Assembly: GCA_958295665.1 (NCBI GenBank)
Contig: OY282560.1
Location: 44,082,333-44,146,332 of the forward strand
DNA: 64,000 nt
Direction: 5' to 3'
From: Tipula vernalis
Lineage: Eukaryota; Arthropoda; Insecta; Diptera; Tipulidae
Shown in pieces: positions 23,301-64,000 of this stretch; the stretch's first letter is position 1, and every line of letters starts with the position of its first letter. Under the pieces are notes generated by a model that saw only the letters and a program-made list of their open reading frames with translations, was not told where the DNA came from and searched no databases. Both the position numbers and the translations under genes were made by a program.

Positions 23301-24916
23301 TATTATAAAATTGAAACTTAAATTTGTCAAATTTTCCCAATCGATTCAACGTGAAATAGAATAGATTGAATACATTCAACTTGAATTTCATAGTAAATTT
23401 TAATTCTAGTTACAAATTGTTAAAGAAAAAAAAAAAATTTAAACATTTCATAAACCTGAAATACTTGAACAAAAATAGGCATAAAACCAAAACGTTGAAG
23501 GCTTAATTTTTAAATATTATACGAAAGCTCACAACTATCAAACGAAATTAAAGTACCACCTTAATGGATTCTCGCCTTTAGAATTAATTTAAACAGAGTC
23601 TGTAAGCTAAGTTTAACTTGAGTATCATATAAATTGGCGGCCATTGAATTTTACCTATTAAACGTATTGAATTTTACTCTAAAATATTCAGAATTTGACT
23701 TCTTTAAAGTTTAATTTAAAATTTCATCGTATTCCAGATTGACTTTTTCATAAATAAAAGTAAATCGAAAAATTGAAATTTGAGAAAATTTTAAAACCAA
23801 ATTTCTAATAAAATATCAAGAATTTATAATTTTATATAATCAGTCTAATATTCTTAAAATTGTCTAGTAAACTTTGGATTAGTTGGAGAAATTTTAAATT
23901 AAGAAAGTCTTGCTCAGACCAATTTCTGAATCTTTAGAAAACTCGAGTTCAAAAAATATCGGCAAAAATACAGAATTTGTTAAATGCAACCTTATGACAT
24001 TAGTAAAATTTCCTCAATATTATATTGAGCATCAGAATTGCTGAACAACGTTACTAAAACACAATCTTAAACCAATCAAAATATTTTTGTAACTGGCAAC
24101 AACTGGAACAAATCGACAACTAGAGAATCTATGTTCTAAAATTTTCAAAATTCAACTAAGTTTTAAAACCTTATTTAGGATTTAATATACATTTTTAATT
24201 TTAAATTGCAAAAATTATATTGTGACAAGAAATTTAAAACTTTTTAATTTGGAAAGACAAATTGAACCAAATTAAATAAAAGTGAATTTTATTGAATTTT
24301 GTGATTTATTCAAATTGTAAGATAAAAATTTAATTACAAAATTTAAAGTTTCTAAGAAATTTTGATACCCACTTAATATTAAATTTGGGAATTTTAGCAA
24401 TTTGTTTAAATTCTGAACTTTTCCAACATTTCTCGAAATCGAAATTTTCAAAATTTTGAAATATTGATTTTTTTTTTCTTTTTAATTTCTGTGTAAAGCT
24501 TGAAATTAAATCAAATCGTTTTCAATATATTCGAACTCTAATTTTTGCAAATTATGATAAAATCGAAACGGTATTTACAAATTTTAGAATTTCTTTCTGA
24601 AATAGGCTTTCATCTGAAATCTGAACTACGTATACAAACAAAAGCCTAAAACTAAAAGTTGAAGGTTTAATTTTTAATATTACATAAAGCTCACAACTAT
24701 CAAACGAAAATAAAATGACATCTTAATGGGAGTCGTAACTTTACAATTAATTAAGGCGCAGTCACTAAGCTAAGTTTATATCGAACGGCACATAAAATCA
24801 ATAAAATCAGCACAAATATATTTTTTATTATTTGAAACTTTAGAATTTTATTCTAAAATGTTCAGCATTATAAAATTGAAATATTAGAAAATTTTAAAAT
24901 ATGCAATTCTTTTACC
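20346..24916. repeat. Diverged ~1.1 kb repeat family (left part)
   Basis: Non-coding, AT-rich. A recognisable block recurs at about 20690-20900, 21725-21940, 22450-22640, 23470-23645 and 24600-24810. It contains, in degraded form, AGCTCACAACTA, TTAACCGAGTCT (or AGAGTCTGTAAGCTAAG) and GTGTCACATAAAAT(T/A). Spacing between copies is irregular, roughly 0.7-1.2 kb. Copies are too diverged for exact borders. A further copy lies at about 27690-27880, beyond an inserted element. No reading frame shared among copies suggests a protein. Confidence 0.5.
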
Positions 24917-25068
24917 AGTGTGAAGTTTATGACAAATTGACAAAAAACCTTACAACAGCAGAAAAAGTGTAAAAACAAGTACATATTACACTTTCTACAC
25001 AATCTATAAGCAGATGGCTTCATATATTTTGTCATTTTTTGACAAAATTGTGTAGCTTACACTTGCTA

Positions 25069-25239
25069 CAGTAAAACTTCCTTAAGTCGAACTTCTATTA
25101 GTCGAATAATTCCATAAATCGAATTTTTTGTGGCAGGAGCCACAATTTGTATTGGGAAGTAATTTCTATATCTCGAATTTTCTTTTACTCGAACAAATTA
25201 TTATGGCAACTAGTGATTCGACTTATAGAAGTTTCACTG
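25069..25239. mobile_element. Nested pogo/Tc1-type MITE (171 bp)
   Basis: Terminal inverted repeats start CAGTAAAACTTC and CAGTGAAACTTC (right end read on minus), extending to about TAAGTCGAA on both sides. TA dinucleotides flank it (25067-25068 and 25240-25241). The insertion interrupts the left arm of the larger element. The right arm has the uninterrupted sequence (GCTAATTCG on the minus strand near 26437-26445), giving a direct view of the empty site with one TA. Confidence 0.85.
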
Positions 25240-25468
25240 TAATTCGAAAAAATTTAATTTTATATTCAAAAATTTTGGAAACTAAATAAATGTGGTGAGT
25301 TGTGTTAAAGCTCGAAGGTAAAATACTAAATAGTTACGCAGAAGTATGTTTTAAAATTATAATAAAAATGAATTTTTTGTTAATTTTCATAAGGCAGTAA
25401 AATTCAATACTGTAAGTATTTAAGCTCATTACAAACGTCAATAGAAACATTTATTAACCAATGACATG

Positions 25469-25552
25469 TTCCCTGGATCTGAGTATGCCATCACGTTGGT
25501 GTGCATTTAGTAAATAATATAAAGTAATCGCCATATTAACGCGACCCTCAAC
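25469..25552 (+). repeat. 84-bp direct repeat, copy 1
   Basis: Starts TTCCCTGGATCTGAGTATG and ends CGCGACCCTCAAC. It overlaps the inner end of the left inverted arm. Copy 2 follows 173 bp later. Confidence 0.85.
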
Positions 25553-25641
25553 AAACCGGTGGTCGATTTTACAATAAGACATACACTAAAATTATGTGTA
25601 GTGTATTTTCGAAGGCCAATAACAGGCCATCGTAGAGATTG

Positions 25642-25725
25642 TTCCCTGGATCTGAGCATGTCATCACATTGGAATACATTTAGTGGATAATATAAAGTAA
25701 TCGCCATATTAACGCGACCCTCAAC
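25642..25725 (+). repeat. 84-bp direct repeat, copy 2
   Basis: Starts TTCCCTGGATCTGAGCATG and ends CGCGACCCTCAAC. It is nearly identical to 25469-25552 and lies in the unpaired centre of the element. Confidence 0.85.
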
Positions 25726-26584
25726 CGGGCCCAACCCTCGAAAATAGAAATAGATATGGATGCCGCAGTTCTCACGTACAAATGTAAATTGGAAATATGT
25801 ACTTACATTTTAATTTTATTACCAGCATATCAAACAGGTGAAATATATCGGTACAATAACCAAAATGCATCAACCAATAAAAAAATTAAAAAATGGCGAC
25901 TATCTGGAAAATTGAAAAGAAGAAAGTTTTCTTAGGTTTTGGTCAACACGAAATTTAAAACAAAACAATTGAAAATTTCACATTTTTACTCCAGAATTTT
26001 TGGCAATCATGTTGGCACGACCAGAACTTGTCCCTAAACCTTCTGTGAAGCTATCAGCCATCGTAATCGGAGAATCGAAACACAGTCATATGTCAGAGAG
26101 ATTTCAGATTAGGCTTCTACAATGTACATATGTGCTGTAACTAGACATTTTTTAAGTTTTAATCCACTAAATGCTCACCAACGTGATGGCATACTCAGAT
26201 CCAAGGAACATGTCGTTGGTTAATAAATGTTTCTTTTTACGTTTGTAATGAGCTAAAATATTTACAGTATTGTATTTTACTGCCTTATGAAAATTAACAA
26301 AAACTTCATTTTTATTATAATTTTAAAACATACTTCTGCGTAACTATTTAGTATTTTACCTTCGAGCTTTAACACAACTCACCACATTTATTTAGTTTCC
26401 AAAATTTTTGAATATAAAATTATATTTTCTTCGAATTAGCATGTGTAGCTACACAATTTTGTCAAAAAATGATAAAATATATGAAGCTATCTCCTTATAG
26501 ATTGTGTAGAAAGTGTAATACTTGCTTTTACACTTTTTTTTTGCTGTTGTAAGGTTTTTGTATATTTTTCATAAACTTCACGCT

Positions 26585-28000
26585 AACAATTCTTTTACAA
26601 TTTTAGATAATCAACCCCATATTTTTAAAATTATACGTTAGAATTTGGATTAGTCGGAAAATGTTAAAATTAATTCCAAAGCTCTAATTTAAATATTTGG
26701 CCCAATTTTAGAATTTTTAAAATTTCGAGTGCAAAAAATATTGGCGAAAATGCAGAATTTCGTAAACGCAAACTTATGATATTGGTAAAATTTCCACATA
26801 GAATATTAAGCATTAGTTCGAATTAATTTGGAAAAACCTAAAAACTTATGAAACCTTTCAAATTAACAGTTTGGGTTTACACCATAACCACCAAATAAAG
26901 GTGCGATATACTCAATTAGGTTGGAATTGTAAAATATGAATTTTTTTACAAAATATAAGTCACCTTGCATTTTAACTTTAAACTTGTTCTAAATTCGCAG
27001 TCGCAACAAATTAATATTCGGAAAACATAGAGAAAACAATAGAGTTATATTCTTATTTCAGAATTCGACTTAATTTCAAAACCTTACTGAGAATTTATTT
27101 TAAATTGTAAAATTTTGAATAATTTGATCCAAAATAAAATTTAAAAGAAAATAAAAAATTCGTTAAATTTAACTAAATTAAATTTAATTTGTAGCTCAAA
27201 AGCAATTTGTTAAATTTTGCGAATTTTTCTTTGATACAAATTTGATAAGCAAAATTTTGATTGTGAATGTCTTTTGTTTTTAAGAAATTTCTTTTAATAA
27301 CCACAATTAAATTTGGAAATTTTCAATATGAACTAAGAACTGCAATTTGTAATTAAGAATGAATTTTATGAAATTCTGAATTTTATCCAACTTTTTACGA
27401 ACTCGAGATTTTAAAAATTCTGAAATTCGTTCAGTTATTATTCCTGAATAAGGCTTTGGAAATCAAATCAAATCATATTCCAAATAATAGTACTCTAATT
27501 TTTCAAAATTTGAACATAAATTTGTTAGATTTTTCAAATTAAATAGATTACGTGTATTTCATTATAACTGAAAATTAAAGTTTGGATTAGTTAAAAACTA
27601 TCGAAAAAAAAAATAAAATTATTTAAAAATTTTAGAATTTAAATTCAGAGGTGAAATTTTTGAAAAATGGCAAATCTTAGATAAAATTTTCTACTAAAAT
27701 CTGAAATAGACAAATTAATCTAAAACCAAAACTTGAACACATAATTGTGAAACATTATACAAAGCTCACAACTACGAAATTAAAATGCCAAGAATTAACT
27801 GTCTCAACATTAAAATTAATTTAGTCCGAGTCTGTAAACTAAGCTTAATTCAAAGCGTTAAACTTACAATTTATTTTAAAATTTTATCGTGTTCCAGACC
27901 AACATTGAAATTTAAAGATAAGTGTGAACAAGATTTTTGTTAATCTAAGCCTTATTTAAAATTTAACATTCCAAAAGTTGTACCAATTTCAGGATGAAAT
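26585..28000. repeat. Diverged ~1.1 kb repeat family (right part)
   Basis: Continuation of the repeat field interrupted by the inverted-repeat element. A clear copy of the core block is at about 27690-27880 (AAGCTCACAACTA, then GAGTCTGTAAACTAAGCTTAA). No coding potential. Confidence 0.45.
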
Positions 28001-31164: not shown

Positions 31165-31706
31165 CCCCTTAAATTTCTTAAGTACCCAAATAACGGCCAA
31201 ATCCCCACTTTCAGTGGTCGAATAGTCTCGTTTTAAAGAGCACGCGAGATTATCCAAGTTTATCATCCCCACGTACAGAAAAAACTGGAATGAAATGGAA
31301 TAGTGTTGCCTCATGAATATTTTTATTTTTCCTTGGATGAGAAACTGGGATAACGTTACATCAAAGCAAATAATAACGTATATAAGAAGTTGCACATCGT
31401 ACAAAATGCAAGAAAAATATTTTGGGTACGGTCGATGTGAAAGTGTGATGCCGTAGAATTGAAATGGAAGGATATACATAAAAATAAAATATTTGCTATT
31501 TCACAATCGAGCATTCATTTGTGGTTTTGTATTCATAGAGAAAAGTTCAGGTTCATTATTTGTAGTTTAATCATGTGTATTTTATCTTTATTGCATTTCC
31601 ATTTATTAGTGATTTAATAAATTCCCAATGTTAATTTAATTTTTTTACATCGTGCGTTATTATTTTATTATAAATATTAATAGTTTTGGAAAATTCAGGA
31701 ATTTTG

Positions 31707-31840
31707 TGCGCGGTTAAATCATGTAAATCTTCTCGAAGGAAAAATCCTGAAAAAAATTTTTTTTTTGATTTCCATCGGACAAAATAATGTTTGATGCCTG
31801 GGTAAATAAATGTGGATTATGTGATAAACATTTGTCAAAC
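31707..31840 (+). pseudogene. THAP zinc-finger remnant
   Basis: Read forward, a THAP-like start (CAVKSCKSSRRKNPEKNFFF, then DFHR) gives the first C..C pair and the phenylalanine-rich strand. After a frame change near 31785 the next frame reads a DAWVNKCGLCDKHL-like segment with the Trp and the C..H pair expected of the family. THAP fingers are the DNA-binding heads of P transposase and THAP9. The assignment is by eye and depends on one frameshift. Confidence 0.55.
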
Positions 31841-32290
31841 ATTTTATTCCAAATTCTATAGAAAAACCGAGATTGAAGCGAAATTCTATTCCCGAATTTT
31901 ATTTGACCTATCCGGATTTTAAGGTTGATCACGAAACTCTGTTAAAATATGAAAATCTTAGAACGTAAAAAAATAAAAATACACCTTCAAATGAAAATAT
32001 ATCTTTAGAATTTTTAAATGAGGGATGTAATGATATGAAGTCAACACTTCAAAATGACAACGAAGCTTTTGTATTAGTTGTGAAACTCATATAAAAAATT
32101 CATATTATTATAAACAAAAATATGATAATGCGTCGAAAAAAATTGAGCTCCTCAAGAATTAATAATTTTAGTAGGAAAATATCAAATCTTAAGAAACGAT
32201 TAAAGAACAGTCAGAAAAATGTGAAGATAGTAGTACCTGTATCTTAAACTGTGCTGATTGCCAGCATTGATAAACTAATTTATAAAAATT

Positions 32291-33279
32291 TTGATTAATT
32301 TATCAAACCAATATCCGTTAGAACAGAAAAACATAACACAAAAAATTTATTTTGAGTCACCTAGTTGTTATAATTTTCTCAGAGAAAATTTAAAATTAAA
32401 TTTACCATCGAAATCCTCATTATGCCGTTGGACTTTATTGAAAAATTTCAAACCCGATTTAAATGATTTTGTACTCAGGTATCTTAAAGGATAATTATCA
32501 GAGATAACAAACTCAGACAAATGGATAGTGCTAATGTTTGATGAAATATCTATTCGGCCTGATTTAGAATATGATCAGGTCAATGACGTAATTGACGAAT
32601 ATTCACAGATAAATAAAAGCAGATACTCGACAATTGCACGATGCATTAATGTTTTTATGATTTGGGGACTATTTAGGCAGTATAAATATGCAGTTGCTTA
32701 CCATGTAACTGAAAAAAATATGGATGGTGAAATTATCAAACAAGTTTTAATGGAACCCATTAAATCATTATTCAATTTTGCTTTCAAAATTTTTGCGGTG
32801 ATGTGTGGTCAAATTCCAAATAACCATAAATGCTTCCGTTTACTTAATACACCCCATTTGGTTAAATCAATCAGAAATATTTTACTAACCACCAATTTAG
32901 AAACTCCTGATGGAACTGCTACTTGGAAAGTACCAATGGAAACATTTGAAGGCGAGAAATTCAGAACGACTAAATTGTGTGTTCCAAAATTAACAGTATA
33001 ACATATTTATCCAAATACTTTTCAAAAAATGAAAGTACAATATGCCACACAAATATTTAGTAGAAGTTTAGCAGCTGGCATACGCACAATGATTTACTTT
33101 GATAAGTTTTCGGGTGAAGCTAATACAAGCAATTTTTTTCGAAAAAGTTGATCGATTATTCGACAATTTAAACAGTAAATTACTTTACTATTCAAACCCT
33201 CAAAAATCCACTCTGAAGCAAAATAATGCTGTTAATGATAATTTAAATTTTATTTTAGACTATCTTGACAAAATTTAAC
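32291..33279 (+). pseudogene. P-type (THAP9-like) transposase, degenerate
   Basis: The main frame has a stop at 32492-32494 and another at 32999-33001. P-family landmarks are FLRENLKLNLPSKSSLCRW near the start, LMFDEISIRPDLEYD (first catalytic Asp region, about 32533-32580), PLVxSIRNILL-like PHLVKSIRNILL (about 32840-32890) and FQKMKVQYATQIFSRSLAAG (about 33015-33085). A one-base shift near 33140 brings in EKVDRLFDNLNSK, the expected continuation, up to a stop near 33279. The usual CD.GxNN motif is degraded to CGQIPNNHKC. It would cut and paste the element using GTP as cofactor in known P transposases. This copy cannot. Confidence 0.75.
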
Positions 33280-33897
33280 CAAATCCTTAAAAAATGATGT
33301 ATTGTTTCAATGGCTTAATACAAACCTTTAGAGGTTTTTTATCTTTATCATCATATTTCTGTTTATAATAATATGAATTTTTTATATGAGTTTCACAACT
33401 AATACAAGAGCTTCGTAGTCATTTTGAAGTGTTGATTTCTTATAATTAATTATTTAGAATTTATTAAATCACTAATAAATGGGAATACAATAAAGATAAA
33501 TTACACATCATTAAACTACAAATAATAACCTGAACTTTTCTCTATAAATACAAAACCGTAGATGAATGCTCGATTGTGAAATAGAAAATATTTTATTTTT
33601 ATGTATATCCTTCCATTTCATTCGTTAGTACAACAAATGATATTCGTTTCTTATGAACCGATAAGGAGAAATGCATTTTTATATTGTTTACATAAAATAT
33701 GTGTTATAGCAAAAAATATTATAGTATCGAAGTTCCACTGTCCGGACATGGAATTATAGCATGTTCGAATTTTATCCGAAGTGCAACTTTTTTATATGTT
33801 ATTATTTTCTTTGGTTACATGCTTTTCAAAACGAGACTGTTCGACCACTGAGCGAGAGGTTCTTGCAGTTATTTGTACACTCAAGAAATCCTGGGCT

Positions 33898-34688
33898 TAG
33901 ATGGGACTCAACTAATAATTTTAAAGTATAGGTATGACCAAAAACTATAGTAGATTTCAAAGAGACGTCTCATGTCGAATAAATAAAAACTCAAATTAGT
34001 GGGGTGTAGAAAATACCTAATTGGGTGGAACAATATAGCCCTGTGGCGGTTCACGCATGTGTACATGCATTCGTTGTCACACGGTAACAAACAACGCGCC
34101 CTTTCTATCATCTGCGTTCAAGTATACCAACCGCGCGACACAACAGAATTACAAAACAGATAGACGAAGGAACGAAATAAAATAAAATACAACAGTCTGC
34201 ACTCGAATTTCAATAAGGTGAACAACAAAAATTGTGAATAAATAAATAAAATTAAAATGTTAGTTAAATTAAATTTATTAATTAAATTAAAAATAATTAA
34301 ATAATTAAAATAAAATTAATTCAAATTAAATACATTTAACTAAAATAAATTAAAAAATTTAATCAAAACAAAATTGTGTACAATTATTTATTTGTGAACA
34401 CGTTATATTGGTGACAACCGGCGTCCATTTTTATGGACATGAACACGCGGTTTTATTTAATTATTTTTTTTAAAATAAATTATGAACACTCGTACGACCC
34501 TGTACCAGGTAAATAAGGTACATCGAACACACCTACAATACAAACGTGGAGTTATGTACAACATACAAACGTGGAGCCACACAAAATACACATGAAACGG
34601 CACACGCAACACGTTCACAGGGCTCAACATAGCTGTATCATCATTTTGTATAGGGACACATAAACATTTATACATGTTGTACGCAATG
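33898..34688. other. Intergenic DNA
   Basis: No gene. An AATTAAAT-rich low-complexity tract occupies about 34230-34370. A 14-bp direct repeat ACATACAAACGTGG / ACAATACAAACGTGG lies near 34539 and 34561. The minus frames here (33908-34111, 34457-34720) have no recognisable motif. Confidence 0.45.
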
Positions 34689-36181
34689 AGTGTGAAGTTT
34701 ATGCTAAAAAAAAATAACATAAAATTACACTGTTAAATTAGCTATTTTTCCAATTGGAATTTAAATTATATGAAAATTCAAATGTTTTGTAATTTTGGAA
34801 TTTTCGTACCACCAAACAGATTCTTTTCATCGTTTTCAGACAGCTAGACCATCTGTTTATCTCGTTAACCAAAAGCATCCAATTGTGTAGAACATTACTA
34901 GTTATATTTCAGATAATTTAAAAGTTGGCCGATTTTTGATGGTTTATATATTTATTTAGCGTCGATCCTGGAAATGTCCCGCACATTTCTTAGAATAGCT
35001 AAGCCATATAGCGGTCAATGTCACCAAGCCGATCCATTTATAATGAACTATAATATATTTCACAGTTTTTGGAATTTTTAATAATTTTGGATTATTTTAA
35101 AAGTTTTATATCGCCGACCGCAGAGATGTCCACAAGGTCTTGCACATATCCTCGGATAGATAATATTGTCAGATAACTTGGCCATATACCCCTATAAGTG
35201 GCCAACCTGATCCAATTGTGATGACCTCTACTATATTTCGCCGAATTTAGAAGCTTTAATAATTATCGATGGTTTTAAAAATTGTTTTATCTCCAATCAC
35301 AGAGATGTCCACAAGATATTGCCCATATTTTCGGATAAATTGGCCGTGTGCCAGTTTATGGGGTCAACCTTATCCAATTGTGATGAACTATACTATACTT
35401 CATAGAATCAATTTCTAATAATTTTGATGGTTTTAAAAATTGTTGTATCTCCGATCACAGAGATGTCCACAAGGTCTTGCCAATATTTTCGGATAAATTG
35501 GCCACGTACCAGTCTACGCGGTCAACCCTATACAATTGTGATGAACTATACTGTACTTCACAGAATTTAGAATTTCTAATAATTTTGATGGTCAAATCAA
35601 AATTATTAAAAATTCTAAATTCTGTGAAGTATAGTATAGTTCATCACAATTGGATAAGGTTGACCAGGTAGATTGGGATGTGGCCAATTTATCCGAAAAT
35701 ATCGGCAAGATCTTGTGGACATCTCTGTGATCGGCGATACAACAATTTTTAAAACCATCAAAATTATTAAAAATTCCAAAAACTTGAAAATATATTATCA
35801 TCATAATTGGATCGGCTTGGTGACATTAACCGCTATATGGCTTAGCTATTCTAAGAAATGTGCGGTCCTTTCGGGACATTTATAGGATCGACGCTAAATA
35901 ATTATTTAAACCATCAAAAATCGGTCAACTTTTAAATTATCTGAAATATAGTAATGTTCAACACATTGGATACTTTTGGTTAACGAGACAAACAGATGGT
36001 CGAGCTATCTGAAAACAATGAAAAGAACCTGTTCCCTGATGAATAGAATCTGTTTGGTGGTACGAAAAATCCAAAATTACAAAACATTTGAATTTTCATA
36101 TATTTTAAATTCCAATTGGAAAAATAGCTAATTTAACAGTGTAATTTTTTGTTATTGTATTTTTAGCATAAACTTCACACT
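34689..36181. mobile_element. Foldback element with internal ~160-bp units
   Basis: The ends are AGTGTGAAGTTTATG (34689-34703) and its exact complement (36167-36181). The palindrome continues one step further (CAATG before, CATTG after). Long arms share TTACACTGTTAAATTAGCTA, TTCCAATTGGAATTTAAA, ACCATCTGTTTATCTCGTTA (degraded) and the GCTAAGCCATATAGCGG block. Inward, the left arm carries about three direct copies of a ~160-bp unit (GATGTCCAC anchor at 35125, 35304, 35462). The right arm carries one inverted copy (anchor complement near 35715-35723). The turn is near 35592. It has no coding capacity and no obvious target duplication. A second copy starts at 60051. Confidence 0.85.
35100..35591 (+). 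repeat. Short direct array of the ~160-bp foldback unit
   Basis: Three units with anchors 35125, 35304 and 35462. Spacings are 179 and 158 bp, the first unit carrying a ~17-bp insertion near 35158-35175. Each has TCACAGAGATGTCCACAAG (first unit GCAGAG), AATTGTGATGA and TTTAATAATT. They match the units of the array at 60.5-64 kb. Confidence 0.85.
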
Positions 36182-36325
36182 CATTGTTATTATGAAAGGT
36201 AATGTATGGCTGAATTTCATTGATAGTTTCTACTCTAAAACGAATGGAGAGAGGTTAATTAATTTTCTTTATTATTCTAAATTTTACTTTAAAGTATGAG
36301 AAATGTATTGTTCTAACCAAGACCA

Positions 36326-36501
36326 GAATAAACCAATAATTGCTCAGACAAAGATTTCAAAACTGAAAATGACTAAAAATCACTCAAAATTTTTGTGATA
36401 ATCACTGTAATATTCATATTACAGTGTTATCACAAAAATTTTGAGTGATTTTTAGTCATTTTCAGTTTTTAATTCTTTGTCTGAGCAATTATTTGTTTAT
36501 C
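36326..36501. repeat. Palindrome with ~83-bp arms
   Basis: The left arm (36326-36412) and right arm (36418-36501) are near-complementary through CAATAATTGCTCAGACAAAG, AAAACTGAAAATGACTAAAA and ATCACTCAAAATTTTTGTGA, with only a few bases of loop (around TTCAT). It is probably a hairpin MITE. No TA or other duplication is certain. Confidence 0.85.
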
Positions 36502-42856: not shown

Positions 42857-44901
42857 ATGTCTGAAGGTAAATTGCACCTGATTATATTATCTCTAACGGT
42901 AAAATCTGATCTTGTATTTTGTTTTAAATGTTTGGAATTACTTAAATATATATTAAACTTTATTTTCTAATAAAATTTGTGCAAAAAAAAACCATATCGA
43001 AACCGTTACTTCTCGAAACATTTTACTGTACTCAGCCGAGTACAATGGGCAGTTATGTAATTAAAATATATATTTTTATTTTTTTTTTGTTTAGAAATGA
43101 GTGCATATTTTACAGAAATAAGCACTAACAATTTTTATGGTCGAAAATTATTCAATACACTTCCGGAGGCTTTTGATGCCTTAAGTGAGAATGACAATGA
43201 AGAAGATATTGTTCTGTTGCCCCCAGAACCAAATTATCTAACTGATGAAGAAGAATTCGATGACAATGATCTTATGACTATAGCGGTTCCAAATGATGTG
43301 CCAGGTCAAATTGAAATTGGCCCCAATACCTTACAAGAAGATGATATTTTTTCATCTAGCGACGATGAACCGATAAGTGCCCTGACTGCTAAAAAAAAGA
43401 AAACAATTCATACATTTTCATGGAAAAAAGTGGAACCATCATATACCACCCTTGGAAGTCCTATTGAATCCCTTCACAACGAACGCAGAGACGAACTTAT
43501 ATCGGAATTCAAAAATTTAACTCCCACGGCAATTTTTGAAAAAATTTTGGATGAATCAGTTGTTCAACTTATTGTTGACCAAACAAATTTATATGCTCAG
43601 CAAAAGAATAACCACAGCTTTAACCTAACGGCTTTGGAAGCAAGAACTTTTATTGGTATTTTGTTTTTGACTGGTTATCATCCACAACCACAAGAGAGGA
43701 TGTACTGGTCCCTTGACGAGGATATTGGAGTTGAGCTAGTTGCTAAGTGTATGAGTAGAAACAGATATCTAGAAAAAAAAAGATATATACATCTAGCTGA
43801 TAACAACCAATTGAATAAGGATGATAAAATGTTCAAGATTCGTCCTTTGATGAACATTTTAAATAATAAATTTATGCAGTGGGGAGTTTTTCAGACTGAA
43901 CTAGCAATTGACGAAGCCATGATAAAATATTTTGGGCATCATCCAGCCAAACAATTTATTAGGGGAAAGCCTGTACGATTTGGCTACAAAGATTGGATGT
44001 TATGTAGTTCATCTGGATATTGCTATGCGTTTGACACTTATTGTGGAAAAAATAATAATCAGTATAGTACTACAGAAACTCTTGGAGCTAAAGTGGTTCT
44101 TTCTTTATTAGAGAAGCTAGAACATCCAGAAGAACATGTGATTTACTTCGACAATTATTTTACTACATTGGAACTTATGAGACTTCTTAGAGAGAAAAAA
44201 ATCAGAGCTACGGGTACCATCAGGGAGAACCGCTTAAAAAAATGCCCAATTGAAGATACCAAGAAAATGAAGAAAGCTGAAAGAGGATATTTCGATTATA
44301 TGTTTGATACAAATAACGAAATCCTAATTGTAAAATGGGTCGATAATAGTGTTTGCACAATGGCATCAAACTATGATAAAATCGAGCCGCTTTCGAAAGT
44401 CAGAAGATGGTCGAAGATACAGAAAGCTGTTGTCGATGTACCACAACCTCTTCTTTTTAAAAATTACAATCGAGGAATGGGCGGAGTGGACCTAAACGAT
44501 CAAAGTGTGAACACGTACCGTATTAGTATACGAGGGAAAAATGGTGGTGGGTATTATTTACGCATATGATAGATCTATGCATGACAAATGCTTGGAAGGT
44601 CTCTCAGGTGGCTTCTGACATCAAAATGACGCAATTGGAGTTTACGCGATATGTGACACGGTCATATCTACTTAGTGCAAGAAGTAGGGCTGCCAGAAAA
44701 CCGGTGATACCAATCAGCGTAGTTGAAGACGGCCATGGTCACTACCCAAAAAAACTGGAGAAGCAACTAAGATGTGCAATTTGTCATGCCAGAATTAGAT
44801 GGTGTTGCAAAAAATCCGGTACAACCCTTTGCATCGAACGAGATTGTTTCGAGGTATACCATACCCGAGGAACTTCATATCTGCCCATTGTACTCGCTTG
44901 A
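42857..44901 (+). pseudogene. piggyBac-family transposase with one frameshift
   Basis: The main frame from ATG 43097 runs 490 codons. An A-run at 44537-44541 has lost one base, which turns the conserved GKKWWW region into a wrong frame ending at 44569. The true frame continues at once (LCMTNAWK) to a stop at 44901. The catalytic aspartates are at residues 272 (LAIDEAM), 352 (VIYFDNYF) and 465 (GGVDLND), the usual DDD layout. The N-terminus is acidic, and a C-terminal Cys/His cluster (CAICHARIRWCCKK, CIERDCF) is present. A tiny first exon is likely: ATGTCTGAAG (42857-42866), intron 42867-43094 (GTAAAT..TTTAG), joining in frame to 43095. Use of ATG 43097 alone is also possible. Confidence 0.9.
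42867..43094 (+). other. Probable 5' intron of the piggyBac transposase
   Basis: Donor G|GTAAAT after a short ATG-initiated exon and acceptor TTTTTTTTGTTTAG|AA (polypyrimidine tract). Joining gives GAA at the junction and keeps the frame into ATG 43097. The intron also holds a subterminal motif, GAGTACAATGGGCAG (about 43040-43054). Confidence 0.55.
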
Positions 44902-54473: not shown

Positions 54474-55275
54474 ATTCAAATTGTTTAAAATATTTATATT
54501 CTTTGTTTTAAATTCTCTAAATTATTTAAATCTATTAAATTTCTAATTTCCTTTGAATATTTTAATATATTTAATGATGTTAAATTGTTTAAAAAATTCT
54601 TTATTCTTTCATTCCTCTAAATTCTTTAAATTATTGAAATTTTTTGAATTTCTTATTTTATAAAAAATAAATTAACTCAATAGATTCTTTGACTTGTTTT
54701 CTTAAATATTTCAAAATTAAATAAAGTTGTTTAAATTCTATAAATTTACTAAACTTTTAAATTTTTAAATTTTTCTAAGCTCATTAAGTTTACTGAATTT
54801 CTTAAATTTTTAAACTTCTCGAATTTTTTAAATAGATCAAATTTTTAAATATTATATTTTCCTAATAATTAAAACTAAAACAACTTAATTTTTACAAATT
54901 TAAACTCTTGAAGTTCTTTAAATTATTCTGAATCTAATTTTTCATTGTTTTCTCACAATTTCTCTCATTATTTATTTTTTACTCTAATATTATGGACAAA
55001 TCCATATAATTTATTTATAGTTTACAAAATGTAAATAAACATACATCAGTTTGTTAAGAAACCGTAAATCAAACTTTATGATCATACGTTTTGGCAACAT
55101 CCTGATTCATACACTTTTCAGGTACTCCGTTATTTTATTTTAAAAAATCTTATTAGTTATATATTTAAATCTTTAGATCCTTCAAAATTTTTAATATTTT
55201 TAATTCTTGAAACACACTAAAGTGTTTGTATTTTTTATGCACGTTAAATATTCCAACATTTTATTTAACATTTTA
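54474..55275. repeat. Low-complexity domain, continued
   Basis: TTTAAATTCT-type DNA to about 54960, then the ~170-bp segment shared with 49936-50100, then more AT-rich DNA ending in the TA (55274-55275) at the next element. Confidence 0.6.
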
Positions 55276-56878
55276 CACTGCGCCGATTAAAAAACGGAAT
55301 AGAAATTTTCTTCGAAAAAAAACCCAGGTTTGAACGCTTGTATCTTGGTGAAATAACACTTTTGTTTTTTAAACAATTTTTGTTTCTAGTTAAAGGAAAT
55401 TTTGTTTTCTTTTCGATACTGGAAACCGTTTTATTTTATTTTGTTTTTTTATGACTTTTTTGAGTAAAACAAAAGGTGCCTAAAAAAAACAAAATTTGCT
55501 GCTGTTTGCAACTGTAAACGAACTTGCTCGATATTTCATTCAAAAATCCAAATCGGCCATTTTATAGAGAATTTAGAAACCTTCCAAAATGTTACTAGGA
55601 GAATTTCTGTGCGACCACTTCTTGTCGAGTTATCGAAGTTTTAGAGAAAACGTACCAAAAAGCGTATACACGTTAACAAGGACATTTTTTTATCTTGTAA
55701 ACTTAGCACTCTACGATAAAATTTTGAGCCACATTTTGATATCAGGCGTAATTTTGGTGATCCAAAATCAAGGAGAAAATATGTTTTTACAGTGAAAAAT
55801 ATGATTTATTTCATAAGGTATACTGTAAACAAAATCTTTCTAAACTTTATTCAAACGTAATAAAACTAAAATCTACGAACAAACTGGAATTTTCAATAAC
55901 GCGTGTTACCTCCTATAGCCGGCATTAATTCATAAATACGCCGTGGCATATTTAAAACATTGCGTATTTGTTGCTTGATGATTTGTTGCCTTCTTTCTTC
56001 TTGTAAAGCGTCTTAAAGTTCCTGCAAATTTGTTGGTTGCCTTGTCCGTTTTCTTATACGCAGTTGAAACATATCCCAGACTTGTTCTATGGGGTTTAAA
56101 TCTGGACATCGCGGAGGATGGCTTATGTTAATTAATGCGGTCCTGTTGCAGAAATTGGCGTGTTTTGAGAGCTGTGTTCCACCGGACATTATCATGCATC
56201 AAAAAAAATCTTCGCCCAATTTGTTTTTTCATGGAAAGCATATGAAGCCTTAAAATTTCTTCCACGTATCGTGCTGATGTTAAAGCTGTATGTGGTATTA
56301 CTACCAAATATGTCTTGCAATTCCAAGAAATATCTGCCGAAACCATCACCGAACCTCCATGAAATACTACGACTGGCTTCACGCAATTAGGGTGTAATCG
56401 TTCCCCTAGTGAACTCCAAACTCTGCATCGGCCGTCTGATGCATATAAATTGAACTGCGATTCATCCGAAAAAAGGACCTTACACCAGTCCCTCTGAGTC
56501 CAGTTGCCATACTGCAATGCATAATTTCTTCTTTGTCGACGGTGATTATCAGTCAGATACGGAACTCTGACAGGTCGACGTGATCTTAGTCGATAAGCTT
56601 TCAACCGATTTAATATCAACTGTTTTGATATCTGGTTTTGTATAGGTACGTTACTTCTTATTGCTTGAGTACTGCTTGTCCTGTTTTTTCTAGCATAACG
56701 TGCGACAGCTCGATATTCTCTTGATGTTGTTTTTCTTGGTCGACGGAAGAAAACAAAATTTACTTCAACTAGAAACAAATTTTTTTTTTGAAAAGTGTTA
56801 TTTCACCGAGATCCAAGCGTTCAAATCTGAGTATTTTTTCGAAGAAAATTTCTGTTCCGTTTTTTAGCTGGCGCAGTG
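55276..56878 (-). mobile_element. Tc1-like transposon (1603 bp)
   Basis: Inverted ends CACTGCGCC (55276) and GGCGCAGTG (56878), flanked by TA on both sides (55274-55275, 56879-56880). The inverted repeats run at least 120 bp, sharing ACGGAA(T/C)AGAAATTTTCTTCG, TTGAACGCTTG(T/G)ATCT(T/C)GGTG and AACACTTTT. The minus strand carries a transposase gene. Confidence 0.9.
56013..56778 (-). pseudogene. Tc1-type (DD34E) transposase, N-truncated and frameshifted
   Basis: From 56778 the frame gives RRPRKTTSREYRAVARYARK (end of the second helix-turn-helix), then the DDE catalytic core: D at residue 105 (VLFSDESQFNL), a GGSVMV motif near 141, D at residue 196 (FLMHDNVRWNTA). A frame change at about 56130-56195 brings in SHPPRCPDLNPIEQVWDMFQ with the catalytic Glu at the expected ~34-residue spacing, ending at 56013. 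Tc1 transposases are about 340 residues. The first helix-turn-helix is missing because the frame begins almost inside the right inverted repeat, so this copy lost its DNA-binding head as well as its frame. Confidence 0.9.
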
Positions 56879-56880
56879 TA

Positions 56881-58170: not shown

Positions 58171-60050
58171 TTGGATATGCGCCCATTCGGCTAGAAAATC
58201 TTTCCTTTGCAAACCATACATTTCTGTTTTCTGTTAAATTCTCTACTAAAGAAATAGAAAATAGAATAATTATTCAAGTGATTTTGTTGAAAGATCCAAA
58301 ATTTACAATTATCGTTTCAATTAGATGAAGAGTCAACTGAAAAGGTGACGAATGAGTAAGACTGATTATCTCTTACAGTAATTGTATTAATAATTAACCT
58401 TTAGTAAACAAAAAAAAAAAACAAAAAAAAATTAAGGCAAATTTTCCATGTCAGTCACTTCATTTATCATAAACGATTTACTCTTATCCTTCTTTCTCAT
58501 AAATATTTTACCATTAAGGATTCACAACTATTTGAACTTCTTATTATTTTCAAACGTCACTTCTTGTCTACGTAAATGACATAAACGTTCATTAATGGAT
58601 GTTTACGGGGTAAAATCCAGCACAAAGTTAGCACCAGATAATGCTGCCAGATTTTCCTTTTGGCCTGCAATTTATTTTGTTTTATTTGATGATTGCGGAA
58701 CTTCACGTATATTATGTTGAGCGTCGTTGCGGAACTTCACGTATATTATGTTGTCGTGTTGTTGTTAGTATTAGGAAGAAATGATTTAGTTTTCAAATTA
58801 GAGTAGAATTTCTGAAAAACGGAAAATTTAAAAATTTGTTCCTAAGCTGCCTTAACTGCGTTTTAAGGAAATTTCGGTACTGGCTTATATCATGCTTCAA
58901 AGTTTTTACACAAAATTTAATGGCCCAGGCAGGGTGCAAATAAGAATCTTCAGAAAAAATTAAAATCAGCTACCATTGTGTTCCTAACCATAAGTTTCAT
59001 AACTAAAGCTTCGACCTACCTTTAGTTTTAAGCTTTCAACACGTGTAATGTCTTGTGCAACCATAATTTCAAAGCTACTTAGTGTGAAAAGGGATAAAAA
59101 AGCTTTTTACTTTAATTTTGCATTTTTCTATCTGTCAATAATTCGAATCTAAAAACAAGGACTTAAACATAATACCACGTTAGATACGCATTTTATGCTT
59201 TTAAAGCTTAAAATTAAAAATAAATAAAGAAACTGATGTAAAAACCAAACCAAACATCTAAAAAATTTTATGGAAAAGTCATAAAAAATGGTTAATATAG
59301 CTGCTTGAATACATGTCTTATGAGAAAAATCGAGGAGTCCCATTTGAAGCAGTAGGCCTTCATGACGATCTAGCGCAAATGTTGACAAAATGAATTGTAG
59401 GTGAGGGAGAGTTTCAAGAAGATGTCGCTGTATTCAAATGTTTCACAATTTCAATTGCTTCAGAAATACTGGTCCATATATCTACTTCAAAAACCACATA
59501 ATTTTTCTTTAAGTTTTTAAATAACAAACAAGCAAAAATTAAATTATTTTCAAAATTATTGTTGTCTAATTAAATATTCTAAATATTTGCTTTCTGTGGC
59601 ATCTCAGTTATGGCTTAAAAGAAATGTTGTGAAAATCTTCTCGGGTCCAATCCCAAATTGTTTGAAGCTTTAGATTTTGATATTAATATTTTGGTCCCTG
59701 TTTTCAGTTAAAGAATCAGTTATAATTGAATCTTTTTTTACGCACTCAGTCTGTTGCGTTCATATTTTGCTGTGACCGTGTTATTGTTGTATTGAATATT
59801 GCTAAACTCTAATGAGGACACGTTCCAGGTTGTAAGCTCTTTGCCCAGCAAGGGCGATAATTTAGATCAAGATTCGTTTTCAATCTCTTTCGGTTTAGGT
59901 TCGAATCCCGTACGCCCCATTTTTTTTTTATCGATCCCATTACACATCATTAAAAATAACCTAATGAAATGTTACTAAATCAATACAGTTATGCTATACT
60001 GCGATGTTGTAATATACTAAAAAACCAAATATTCAGGCACAAAATAGATG
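58171..60050. other. Intergenic DNA
   Basis: No gene. A 34-bp tandem duplication (TTGCGGAACTTCACGTATAT then TATGTTG) lies at about 58694-58757. Homopolymer runs are near 58409-58430. The minus frame 59149-59388 has no recognisable motif. A tRNA-like piece is listed separately. Confidence 0.5.
59852..59919 (+). ncRNA. tRNA-like sequence (pseudogene or SINE head)
   Basis: GGTTCGAATCCC is a canonical B box/T loop, followed by ACGCCCCA and a T-run (pol III terminator-like). The 5' GGGCG can pair with CGCCC near the 3' end. AGATT-CGTTTTC-AATCT forms a perfect 5-bp anticodon-like stem with a 7-base loop. But the D arm is too short, the base before the would-be anticodon is G not T, and the T stem is poor, so a functional tRNA is unlikely. 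Confidence 0.35.
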
Positions 60051-60480
60051 AGTGTGAAGTTTATGCTAAAAAAAATAACAAAAAATTACACTGTTAAATT
60101 AGCTATTTTCCAATTGGAATTTAAATTATATGAAAATTTAAATATTTTGTAATTTTGGATTTTTCGTACCACCACCAAATAGATTCTTTTCATCAGGAAA
60201 TCGGTTCTTTTCATCCTTTTCAGATAGCTGGACCATCTGTTTATTTCGTTAACCAAAAGCATCCAATTGTGTAGAACATTACTAGTTATATCTCAGATAA
60301 TTTAAAAGTTGACTGAATTTTGATGGTTTAAATAATTATTTAGCGCCGATCCTGGAAATGTCCCGAAGGCCCCGCATATTTCTTAGAACAGCTAAGCAGC
60401 TAAGCCATATAGCGGCCAATGTCACCAAGCCGATCCAATTATGATGAACGATAATATATTTCACAGTTTTTGGAATTTTT
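60051..60480 (+). mobile_element. Left arm of a second foldback copy
   Basis: Begins AGTGTGAAGTTTATGCTAAA exactly like 34689 and is collinear with that arm through TTACACTGTTAAATTAGCTA, TTCCAATTGGAATTTAAA, CTGTTTAT..CGTTAACCAAAAGC and the GCTAAGCCATATAGCGG block. It keeps a piece (ATCAGGAAATCGG) that is absent from the left arm at 34.8 kb but present in that element's right arm. It leads directly into the array. The right end is outside the window. Confidence 0.85.
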
Positions 60481-63400
60481 AAAAATTTTTCATTATTTTA
60501 AAAGTTTTATATGGCCGACCGCAGAGATGTCCACAGGGTTTTGCACACATTTTTGGATAACTTGGCCATGTGCCAGTCTATGTGGTCAATCTTATCCAAT
60601 TGTGATGAACTATACTATACTTCACAGAATTTAGAATTTTTAATAATTTTATTGGTTTTATAAATTGTTGTATCTCTGATCACAGAAATGTCCACAAGGT
60701 CTGGCCTATATTTTTGGATAACTTGACCATATGCCAGTCTACTTGATCAATCTTATTTAATTGTGATGAACTATACTATACTTCACAGAATTTAGAAATT
60801 TTAATAATTTTATTAGTTTTATAAATTGTTGTATCTCCGGTCACAAAGATGTCCACAAGGTCTGGCCTATATTTTTGGATAACTTGACCATATGCCAGTC
60901 TACGTGGTCAATCTTATTAAATTGTGATGAACTATACTATACTTCACAGAATTTAGAAGTTTTAATAATTTTATTAGTTTTATAAATTATTGTATCTCCG
61001 ATCACGGAGATGTCCACAAGGTCTGGCCTATATTTTTGGATAACTTGACCATATGCCAGTCTACGTGGTCAATCTTATTCAATTGTGATGAACTATACTA
61101 TACTTCACAGAATTTAGAAATTTTAATAATTTTATTAGTTTTATAAATTGTTGTATCTCTGATCACAGAGATGTCCACAAGGTCTGGCCTATATTTTTGG
61201 ATAACTTGACCATATGCCAGTCTACTTGATCAATCTTATTTAATTGTGATGAACTATACTATACTTCACAGAATTTGGAGTTTTTAATAATTTTATTGGT
61301 TTTATAAATTGTTGTATCTCCGATCACAGAGATGTCCACAAGGTCTTGCTTATATTTTCGGATAAATTGACCATATGCCAGTCTACGTGGTCAATCTTAT
61401 TCAATTGTGATGAACTATACTATACTTCACAGAATTTGGAATTTTTAATAATTTTATTGGTTTTATAAATTGTTGTATCTCCGATCACAGAGATGTCCAC
61501 TAGGTCTTGCTTATATTTTCGGATAACTTGGCCATATGCCAGTATACGTGGTCAATCTTATTCAATTGTGATGAACTATACTATACTTCACAGAATTTCG
61601 AATTTTTAATAATTTTATTGTTTTAAAAATTGTATCTCCGATCACAGACATGTCCACAAGGTCTGGCCTGTATTTTTGGATAACTTGACCATATGCCAGT
61701 CTACGTGGTCAATCTTATTAAATTGTGATGAACTATACTATACTTCACAGAATTTGGAATTTTTAATAATTTTATTGGTTTTATAAATTGTTGTATCTCC
61801 GATCACAGAGATGTCCACTAGGTCCTGCTTATATTTTCGGATAACTTGGCCATATGCCAGTATACGTGGTCAATCTTATTCAATTGTGATGAACTATACT
61901 ATACTTCACAGAATTTCGAAATTTTTAATAATTTTATTGTTTTAAAACTTGTATCTCCGATCACAGAGATGTCCACAAGGCCTGGCCTATATTTTTGGAT
62001 AACTTGACCATATGCCAGTCTACTTGATCAATCTTATTTAATTGTGATGAACTATACTATACTTCACAAAATTTCGAATTTTTAATAAATTTATTAGTTT
62101 TATAAATTGTTGTATCTCCGATCACAGAGATGTCCACAAGGTCTGGCCTATATTTTTGGTTAACTTGACCATATGCTAGTCTACGTGGTCAATCTTATTC
62201 AATTGTGATGAACTATACTATACTTCACAGAATTTAGAAATTTTAATAATTTTATTAGTTTTATAAATTTTTGTATCTCTGATCACAGAGATGTCCACAA
62301 GGTCTGGCCTATATTTTTGGATAACTTGACCATATGCCAGTCTACTTGATCAATCTTATTTAATTGTGATGAACTATACTATACTTCACAAAATTTCGAA
62401 TTTTTAATAAATTTATTAGTTTTATAAATTGTTGTATCTCCGATCACAGAGATGTCCACAAGGTCTGGCCTATATTTTTGGTTAACTTGACCATATGCTA
62501 GTCTACGTGGTCAATCTTATTCAATTGTGATGAACTATACTATACTTCACAGAATTTAGAAATTTTAATAATTTTATTAGTTTTATAAATTGTTGTATCT
62601 CTGATCACAGAAATGTCCACAAGGTCTGGCCTATATTTTTGGATAACTTGACCATATGCCAGTCTACTTGATCAATCTTATTTAATTGTGATGAACTATA
62701 CTATACTTCACAGAATTTAGAAATTTTAATAATTTTATTAGTTTTATAAATTGTTGTATCTCCGGTCACAAAGATGTCCACAAGGTCTGGCCTATATTTT
62801 TGGATAACTTGACCATATGCCAGTCTACGTGGTCAATCTTATTAAATTGTGATGAACTATACTATACTTCACAGAATTTAGAAGTTTTAATAATTTTATT
62901 AGTTTTATAAATTGTTGTATCTCCGATCACGGAGATGTCCACAAGGTCTGGCCTATATTTTTGGATAACTTGACCATATGCCAGTCTACGTGGTCAATCT
63001 TATTCAATTGTGATGAACTATACTATACTTCACAGAATTTAGAAATTTTAATAATTTTATTAGTTTTATAAATTGTTGTATCTCTGATCACAGAGATGTC
63101 CACAAGGTCTGGCCTATATTTTTGGATAACTTGACCATATGCCAGTCTACTTGATCAATCTTATTTAATTGTGATGAACTATACTATACTTCACAGAATT
63201 TGGAATTTTTAATAATTTTATTGGTTTTATAAATTGTTGTATCTCCGATCACAGAGATGTCCACAAGGTCTTGCTTATATTTTCGGATAACTTGGCCATA
63301 TGCTAGTATACGTGGTCAATCTTATTCAATTGTGATGAACTATACTATACTTCACAGAATTTCGAATTTTTAATAATTTTATTGTTTTAAAACTTGTCTC

Positions 63401-64000
63401 TCCGATCACAGAGATGTCCACAAGGTCTGGCCTATATTTTCGGATAACTTGGCCATATGCCAGTCTACGTTAACAATTTTATTCAATTGTGATGAACTAT
63501 ACTATACTTCACAGAATTTCGAATATTTAATAGTTTTATTAGTTATATAAATTGTTGTATCTCCGATCACAGAGATGTCCACAAGGTCTGGCCTATATTT
63601 TTGGATAACTTGACCATATGCCAGTCTACGTGGTCAATCTTATTTAATTGTGATGAACTATACTATACTTCACAGAATTTAGAATTTTTAATAATTTTAT
63701 TGGTTTTAAAAATTGTTGTATCTCCAACTTGGCCATATGCCAGTATACGTGGTTAATCTTATTCAATTGTGATGAACTATACTATACTTCACAGAATTTC
63801 GAATTTTTAATAATTTTATTGTTTTAAAAATTGTATCTCCGATCACAGAGATGTCCACAAGGTCTGGCCTATATTTTTGGATAACTTGACCATATGCCAG
63901 TCTACGTGGTCAATCTTATTTAATTGTGATGAACTATACTTCACAGAATTTAGAAATTTTAATAATTTTATTAGTTTTATAAATTGTTGTATCTCTGATC
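60481..64000 (+). repeat. 161-bp satellite array, about 22 units
   Basis: The GATGTCCAC anchor (or a one-base variant) falls at 60526, 60687, 60848, 61009, 61170, 61331, 61492, 61649, 61810, 61968, 62129, 62290, 62451, 62612, 62773, 62934, 63095, 63256, 63413, 63574 and 63850. The unit is 161 bp, or 157-158 bp where TTTATAAATTG is shortened to TTTAAAACTTG-like. One unit at about 63725 lost roughly 46 bp including its anchor. Each unit has TATCTC(C/T)GATCACAGAGA, GGATAACTTG(A/G)CCATATGCC, AATTGTGATGAACTATACTA and CTTCACAGAATTT. The array continues past the end of the window. It is non-coding. Confidence 0.95.

Follow-up and report, generated by a model that had tools for sequence, protein, structure and literature searches.

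Satellite-length arrays of a 161-bp unit in Tipula vernalis lie in closed elements that are very probably non-autonomous foldback transposons

The stretch analyzed here (the window) comprises 64,000 nt of the Tipula vernalis genome, C3:44082333-44146332 of a 1.27-Gb assembly with 340 contigs, in which C1, C2 and C3 measure 464, 412 and 371 Mb, respectively. Near its end, a foldback arm starting at 60048 leads into a tandem array of 161-bp units which is cut by the window end (copy 2). A short and diverged relative of the same family is found at 34686-36184 (element 1). The features at the two places are, in window positions:

60040..60047, + strand: left target-site duplication CAAAATAG, 8 bp; the second copy lies behind the right tip, 3.6 kb beyond the window end
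60048..64000, + strand: copy 2, of which 3,953 bp on the left side are in the window; the whole foldback element measures 7,596 bp and ends 3,643 bp beyond the window
60048..60264, + strand: outer arm with the tip, followed perhaps by a third decayed unit in tandem register, which is barely detectable
60265..60435, + strand: decayed edge unit, position 0; 73% identity to the core unit (local alignment)
60436..60596, + strand: decayed edge unit, position 1 (A1); 76-80% identity to core units
60597..64000, + strand: core array; its 161-bp units are 88-100% alike, and parts of it were recently duplicated internally
34686..36184, no strand: element 1, a diverged short foldback relative of 1,499 bp with the same tip at both ends
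35037..35589, + strand: left units E1-E3 and partial unit E4 of element 1
35590..35595, no strand: hinge of element 1, 6 nt between the inverted halves
35596..36184, - strand: right arm of element 1 with decayed units, inverted

The 19-base tip ATGAGTGTGAAGTTTATGC is present without mismatch at 34686 (+), 36166-36184 (-) and 60048 (+), and in shuffled sequences 0.03 matches were found on average with up to 3 mismatches allowed. The preliminary description of this DNA was thus right in placing the same arm at both sites. The units of element 1 before the inversion measure 176, 162 and 158 bp and are followed by a partial unit of 68 bp. E2 and E3 have 78-89% identity to the core units of copy 2, and A1 has 87% identity to its counterpart E1, so that the units at the two places are the same as well, as had been stated. 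A1 resembles E1 more than it resembles the core units (71% for the last one, which is cut); the transition from arm to array is therefore homologous at both places.

The array in the window was resolved by Tandem Repeats Finder (TRF) and by splitting the units at an anchor word. TRF reports a period of 161 bp, 20.5 copies and 92% matches for positions 60436-63725; splitting gives 22 units, one of them only 119 bp long, and a final 79 bp interrupted by the window end. Recent duplicate blocks of 711 bp at an offset of 1,925 bp and of 409 bp at an offset of 322 bp were found within the array, each with 2 mismatches. Past the window end the array is of limited length and closes within an element of 7,596 bp (C3:44142380-44149975), which consists of the left arm, about 31 units, an inverted junction, about 15 inverted units and the right arm, and which is bracketed on both sides by the 8-bp target duplication CAAAATAG. 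The closing right arm, for which the preliminary description had suggested a search, is therefore present, and it ends with its inverted array 3,643 bp past the window.

A genome search with the left arm of copy 2 as query yielded 40 full-length matches (2,172 candidates, 40 scored). The best 18 of these 40 by score were combined with element 1 to a detailed set of 19 elements, and the units on each side were counted by a profile search, edge units included. An arm end was found on both sides of all 19 elements and 33 of the 38 tips are exact. The elements are 1,499-14,966 bp long, with 0-65 units on the left and 3-65 on the right. Inverted arms with units on both sides are present in 18 elements, separated by a short spacer or none; the remaining one, L016, is without a left array. 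One arm each of L013, L016 and L020 matches in its outer part only. Exact target duplications flank 16 of the 19 elements (8 bp in 10, 9 bp in 6), and the other target sites comprise an ambiguous 7-bp A run in one case and no exact duplication in two (L027 and element 1). The elements thus combine very long inverted repeats, which make up most of their length, with internal direct repeats in variable number and with target-site duplications, as is characteristic of the foldback type. At the same time, up to 65 units occur on one side of one element and core units are on average 0.94-0.95 alike, as in satellite DNA. We consider it very likely that the feature is a non-autonomous foldback DNA transposon and that the array is its variable interior, carried to many places, and not a free satellite. 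The earlier assignment of the repeat to a foldback transposon, other copies of which carry units, is borne out by these elements.

Two rival explanations bear directly on this set. According to the first, a free satellite was there before and picked up a transposon arm at 60051 by chance, and the unit is indeed abundant, with 8,382 exact matches of a unit 20-mer in the genome. This case, named in the preliminary description as the one that would speak against its model, is contradicted by the arm ends on both sides of all 19 elements, by the exact target duplications in 16 of them and by a decayed unit at the expected place in 36 of 38 arms, and we regard it as extremely improbable. According to the second, the structures are artefacts of the assembly, in which repeats were collapsed or wrongly closed. 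Repeats in tandem or inverted order are difficult to assemble, and the analysis rests on the assembly; since exact target duplications are found on both sides of 16 of 19 elements and the lengths of the elements are varied, such an artefact is very improbable.

For the copy number, exact tips were counted and checked against a reversed-pattern control. The 19-base tip occurs exactly 554 + 581 = 1,135 times genome-wide (control 0) and 889 + 892 = 1,781 times at up to 2 mismatches (control 24 + 14 = 38). The first 100 exact tips were taken by position, independent of similarity, and contain 26 pairs of neighbors less than 25 kb apart, of which 23 point inward and 3 do not. The inward pairs span 919-16,711 bp with a median of 2,984 bp. 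As this sample was not chosen by similarity, the long elements are real but not typical. The unit 20-mer was found exactly 4,179 + 4,203 = 8,382 times (control 0) and is contained in 405 of 595 sampled units, which suggests, as a rough lower bound, about 12,000 units or about 2 Mb in the genome. The two halves of the elements meet head to head, and four junction types, distinguished by eye, recur among 17 elements at different loci; this recurrence suggests descent by transposition.

The model of the preliminary description was that the arrays broke out of the transposon into long free arrays, with copy 2 as an intermediate. The arrays do reach satellite length (65 units on one side). In a search with the array only (1,304 candidates, 40 scored; 246 matches, listed in part), the longest stretches listed extend to about 12.9 kb (C3:104333563-104346421), seen without their ends; C1:340043087-340053228 and C1:211828524-211839732 are also among the longest arrays. 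Among the matches listed, about 27 clusters were distinguished by eye and none exceeds about 13 kb, and in nine listed clusters with both strands the + units precede the - units, which is the foldback order. The first 100 matches of the unit 20-mer form 25 clusters in the first 37.6 Mb of C1; 17 of these (82 matches) lie less than 8 kb from an exact tip, which records nearness only. The sole cluster with several matches and no exact tip (C1:37.61 Mb, truncated by the end of the listed matches) carries a full arm on the side that was read, with one mismatch in the tip. Accordingly, no arm-free array was found, in a test that covered this one armed candidate and left seven single matches, most clusters and unassembled DNA outside. 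Furthermore, the number of unit 20-mers per exact tip is 8,382/1,135 = 7.4 genome-wide and not above the 429/33 = 13.0 of the sampled closed elements, a sample which may be rich in long elements. The emancipation of free arrays is unlikely on this evidence. From the proposed origin of a satellite in a foldback element, it can be retained that the arrays vary in length and look locally amplified; that satellite DNA grows out of the transposon is not supported, as the array of copy 2 lies inside a closed element.

The arms themselves contain remnants of the unit. In three arms, the similarity of position 0 to the core unit is 7.0-11.6 standard deviations above that of shuffled sequences. Across the set, a position 0 unit is found at the expected place with E < 1e-3 in 36 of 38 arms, the exceptions being the right arm of L013, which is truncated, and the left arm of L016. 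To the core consensus, position 0 has a likeness of 0.64/0.67, whereas between elements its likeness is 0.97 (left) and 0.92 (right); position 1 has 0.81/0.85 to the core consensus, and positions 2-7 have 0.95-0.97. The arm contains two or more decayed copies of the 161-bp unit, and almost every arm examined has them in the same place. A profile search of the outer 200 bp gave weak matches in 32 of the 38 arms, displaced by -5 to +1 bases relative to exact tandem register; ten shuffled sets gave 0-1 matches for the same number of arms. The matches in the real arms are mostly about 30 bp in length, with scores of 1-3 bits (best 8.0, 135 bp in the right arm of element 1), single-sequence z-scores of the stretch are only 1.3-2.9, and the matches amount to few independent observations, as the arms share descent and shuffling arm by arm loses that relatedness. 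The outer arm perhaps holds a third, nearly erased unit.

The unit was also searched for a tip-like transposase site and nothing clearly beyond chance was obtained. TGTGAAGT occurs in both unit and tip, in opposite orientation; it was rejected as evidence, as a match of at least 10 of 15 bases was reached in 427 of 1,000 shuffles. An exact share of at least 8 bases between tip and unit was likewise rejected as evidence of such a site (70 of 1,000 shuffles).

Concerning array dynamics, core units have a likeness of 0.954 within one arm; compared across the two arms of an element it is 0.942, and compared between elements 0.938-0.939. The longest exact direct repeat within an element measures 1,848 bp (J18); the longest exact match between two elements is 392 bp, with a median of 137 bp for 136 pairs. 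The exact internal repeats of J26, L023, L009 and J18 would be improbable at the age indicated by the private substitutions of the arms (7e-7, 1.6e-6, 4.5e-3 and 7e-3, respectively). Low values were also obtained for L013 and L020 and were set aside, as arm truncation artificially raises their number of private substitutions. For some elements, growth in place after insertion is well suggested, and it is not shown for all. For the outer arms, left and right are 0.930 alike both within the same element and between different elements; outer arms are therefore not homogenized between left and right. The right-right value is 0.934 and the left-left value 0.975, the latter being inflated because the copies were picked by their left arm.

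At C1:6053256-6061180, nine unit matches and a right tip repeat at an offset of 3,182 bp (positions only). It appears that part of a foldback element was duplicated in tandem here, in a way that resembles unequal exchange at the resting site.

Two elements contain large interruptions, of 4.3 kb (L012, 2700-6969) and 4.0 kb (L019, 1358-5388), which were considered as transposase-coding middles and rejected. They lie off the hinge, are unlike each other and contain reverse transcriptase and endonuclease domains, and are therefore nested retroelements in the arrays.

Regarding the mobilizing enzyme, target duplications of the Mutator superfamily are about 8-11 bp long. The duplications found here (8 bp in 10 elements, 9 bp in 6) fit this superfamily, a length not unique to it. 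MULE domains are abundant in the genome: 150 matches were scored, many of them in intact frames of 466-477 amino acids, and the near-uniform intact frames suggest recently active Mutator-like families. The flanks of twelve of these loci were read in the search for an autonomous partner, and no candidate among them has the tip in the stretches read; one of the twelve, L039, has inverted repeats with another sequence. The window also contains a member of a second family:

24914..26587, no strand: element 3, second, foldback-like family, with long inverted repeats and the same 15-base tip core as the foldback family

The chance expectation for this tip core is 0.03. Element 3 contains an 86-bp direct repeat at 173-bp spacing and is flanked by AATTCTTTT (24905-24913 and 26588-26596), which we read as a 9-bp target duplication, although the shared block is readable as up to 12 bp. 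Its 16-base tip word AGTGTGAAGTTTATGA occurs 85 + 79 = 164 times genome-wide (control 1 + 0). One transposase probably serves both families.

In the foldback reading, held above to be very likely, a transposase acting in trans on the tips, probably Mutator-like, would have inserted the copies. After insertion, the core of each arm would grow and shrink by unequal exchange or slippage, and the edge units next to the tip would stay out of the exchange and decay. Tentatively, and with somewhat more doubt than belief, we propose in addition that the transposon is a mobile satellite, i.e. that nearly its whole length, arms included, derives from one tandem repeat that gained transposase-recognized tips and was folded head to head. 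Core arrays would then continue to grow in place after insertion, and the edge units would freeze and fade in a gradient (about 0.96, 0.83 and 0.65 to the core, then barely detectable).

Several points weigh against the foldback reading or limit its basis. The copies were selected by similarity to the left arm of copy 2, which inflates left-arm likeness and under-samples old copies. Two arms are off pattern, namely the missing left array of L016 and the truncated right arm of L013, and neither L027 nor the surroundings of element 1 gave an exact target duplication. An internal repeat above 392 bp is present in only 4 of 17 elements (median 152 bp), and long arrays offer more chances for one. 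The growth test exceeds 0.05 in 11 of 15 whole-arm elements, correction for 15 tests leaves J26 and L023 only, and private substitutions overstate the age of an element if its siblings are unsampled. Elements of a shared hinge type show no clear extra positional likeness past the hinge unit, so that long arrays were not necessarily ever copied by transposition; the comparison used fixed 161-bp steps, which lose register. Finally, the tip words tried are absent from the flanks of 12 of the 150 listed MULE matches, within ±1.5 kb, which may be too short.

Alternatively, array length could be set mainly during transposition, e.g. by gap repair or by replication through a hairpin, and less by unequal exchange after the element has come to rest. 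Among elements with the same hinge type, as judged by eye, the numbers of units on the left and on the right vary freely (57/19, 6/65, 31/15 and 9/11), and the arms of Galileo likewise reportedly vary independently (PMC3573991). That the growth test is without signal in 11 of 15 elements points in the same direction. On the other hand, internal repeats appear younger than the private arm substitutions in four elements, two of them after correction, and the duplication with the 3,182-bp offset, at C1:6055220-6061180, looks like exchange at a resting site, judged by positions only. We hold this alternative to be rather unlikely.

Further mobile elements were noted in the window. A near-complete piggyBac-like transposase is encoded at 43061-44901 in two frames (502 + 124 amino acids), with its best named relative in Sitophilus oryzae (57%), and a second piggyBac-like transposase at 18344-20119. 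A P-like element at 31460-33620 has nested inverted repeats around a fragment (32495-33001) with a TNP-like RNaseH domain, and a Tc1/mariner-like fragment with 90-nt inverted repeats is located at 55274-56880. A near-perfect palindromic miniature element (36328-36500; 74-nt arms 25 nt apart) starts 144 bp past element 1. Just upstream of copy 2, at 59800-59925, a tRNA-like stretch GGTTCGAATCCC, recognized by eye, is followed by a T run and is perhaps a short interspersed element (SINE); ARAGORN called no tRNA within the window, this stretch included.

Comparable systems are known. FB elements reportedly have long inverted arms of composite structure, in which the number of internal repeats varies. 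Helentrons are not known to have long inverted arms or target duplications. In the literature on links between foldback elements, satellites and inverted repeats, Tetris was the closest case found. For Tetris (TIR-220) of Drosophila virilis and D. americana, the published report describes AT-rich tandem units of about 220 bp inside long inverted arms, target duplications of 8-10 bp, arrays of up to 66 units and a transposase that was not found (Dias et al. 2014, PMC4079207). According to the same work, longer arrays are more homogeneous than short ones, the unit has a 37-bp stretch in common with the outer arm, and allelic copies at the same site differ in unit number. It further reports that two arm signals flank long arrays in fiber fluorescence in situ hybridization (FISH) with no units-only array, that Tetris has a middle domain and is known from three complete copies only, and that 39 of 69 unit-bearing contigs contain units only (PMC4079207). 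The elements described here resemble Tetris in the tandem units in foldback arms, the duplications of 8-9 bp and the arrays of up to 65 units. They differ in that many arrays lie inside closed elements, in the in-register decayed arm units, in the short or missing spacer and in the more than 1,100 exact tips. New with respect to Tetris are the closure at sequence level of many long copies, the in-register decayed arm units, little or no middle domain and the high copy number. The family appears to be of the same kind as Tetris and is taken, on the descriptions, as a probable separate member of that kind. A 24-base unit word gave 0 stretches in collections of viral and genome contigs, which may omit records of this genome.

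In a review that cites Scalvenzi and Pollet, tandem repeats in miniature inverted-repeat transposable elements (MITEs) are stated to expand to satellite arrays, with the terminal segments of the element lost by mutation so that a classical satellite is left (PMC12628747). As in that model, internal tandem units vary in number and form longer arrays (PMC12628747); unlike it, the ends of the foldback elements examined here persist. Tm1 is described with composite long inverted arms, internal repeats of about 14 bp and target duplications of 8-10 bp in 45 of 53 cases (PMC3169594). The variable repeat number is shared with Tm1, and the internal repeat is far longer here (161 bp vs about 14 bp). 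For Galileo, of the P superfamily, the accessible passages give direct repeats of about 210 bp in long arms, with counts that differ between arms and at most three per arm (PMC3573991), and extra transposase binding sites in the internal repeats (PMC3573991, PMC3688188). As far as these passages go, unequal repeat numbers in the two arms are common to both, in contrast to the up to 65 units per side found here. Satellite-like arrays carried by non-autonomous mobile elements are also reported for the Cg_HINE Helentron elements of Crassostrea gigas (PMC7492417). Unlike in Cg_HINE, the arrays of T. vernalis occur in inverted pairs, with duplications of 8-9 bp in 16 of 19 elements.

The origin of satellite DNA in transposons is an old question, for which the Tetris case was argued from short contigs and FISH. 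In that work, large arrays were suggested as a possible cause of disruption of the element (PMC4079207). Satellite-length arrays in closed elements with target duplications indicate that an element can carry a large array without breaking apart. As the many separate insertions are replicates, edge decay, local homogenization and growth in place become measurable. If the transposon is indeed a mobile satellite, the genome would carry hundreds of dispersed satellite nurseries.

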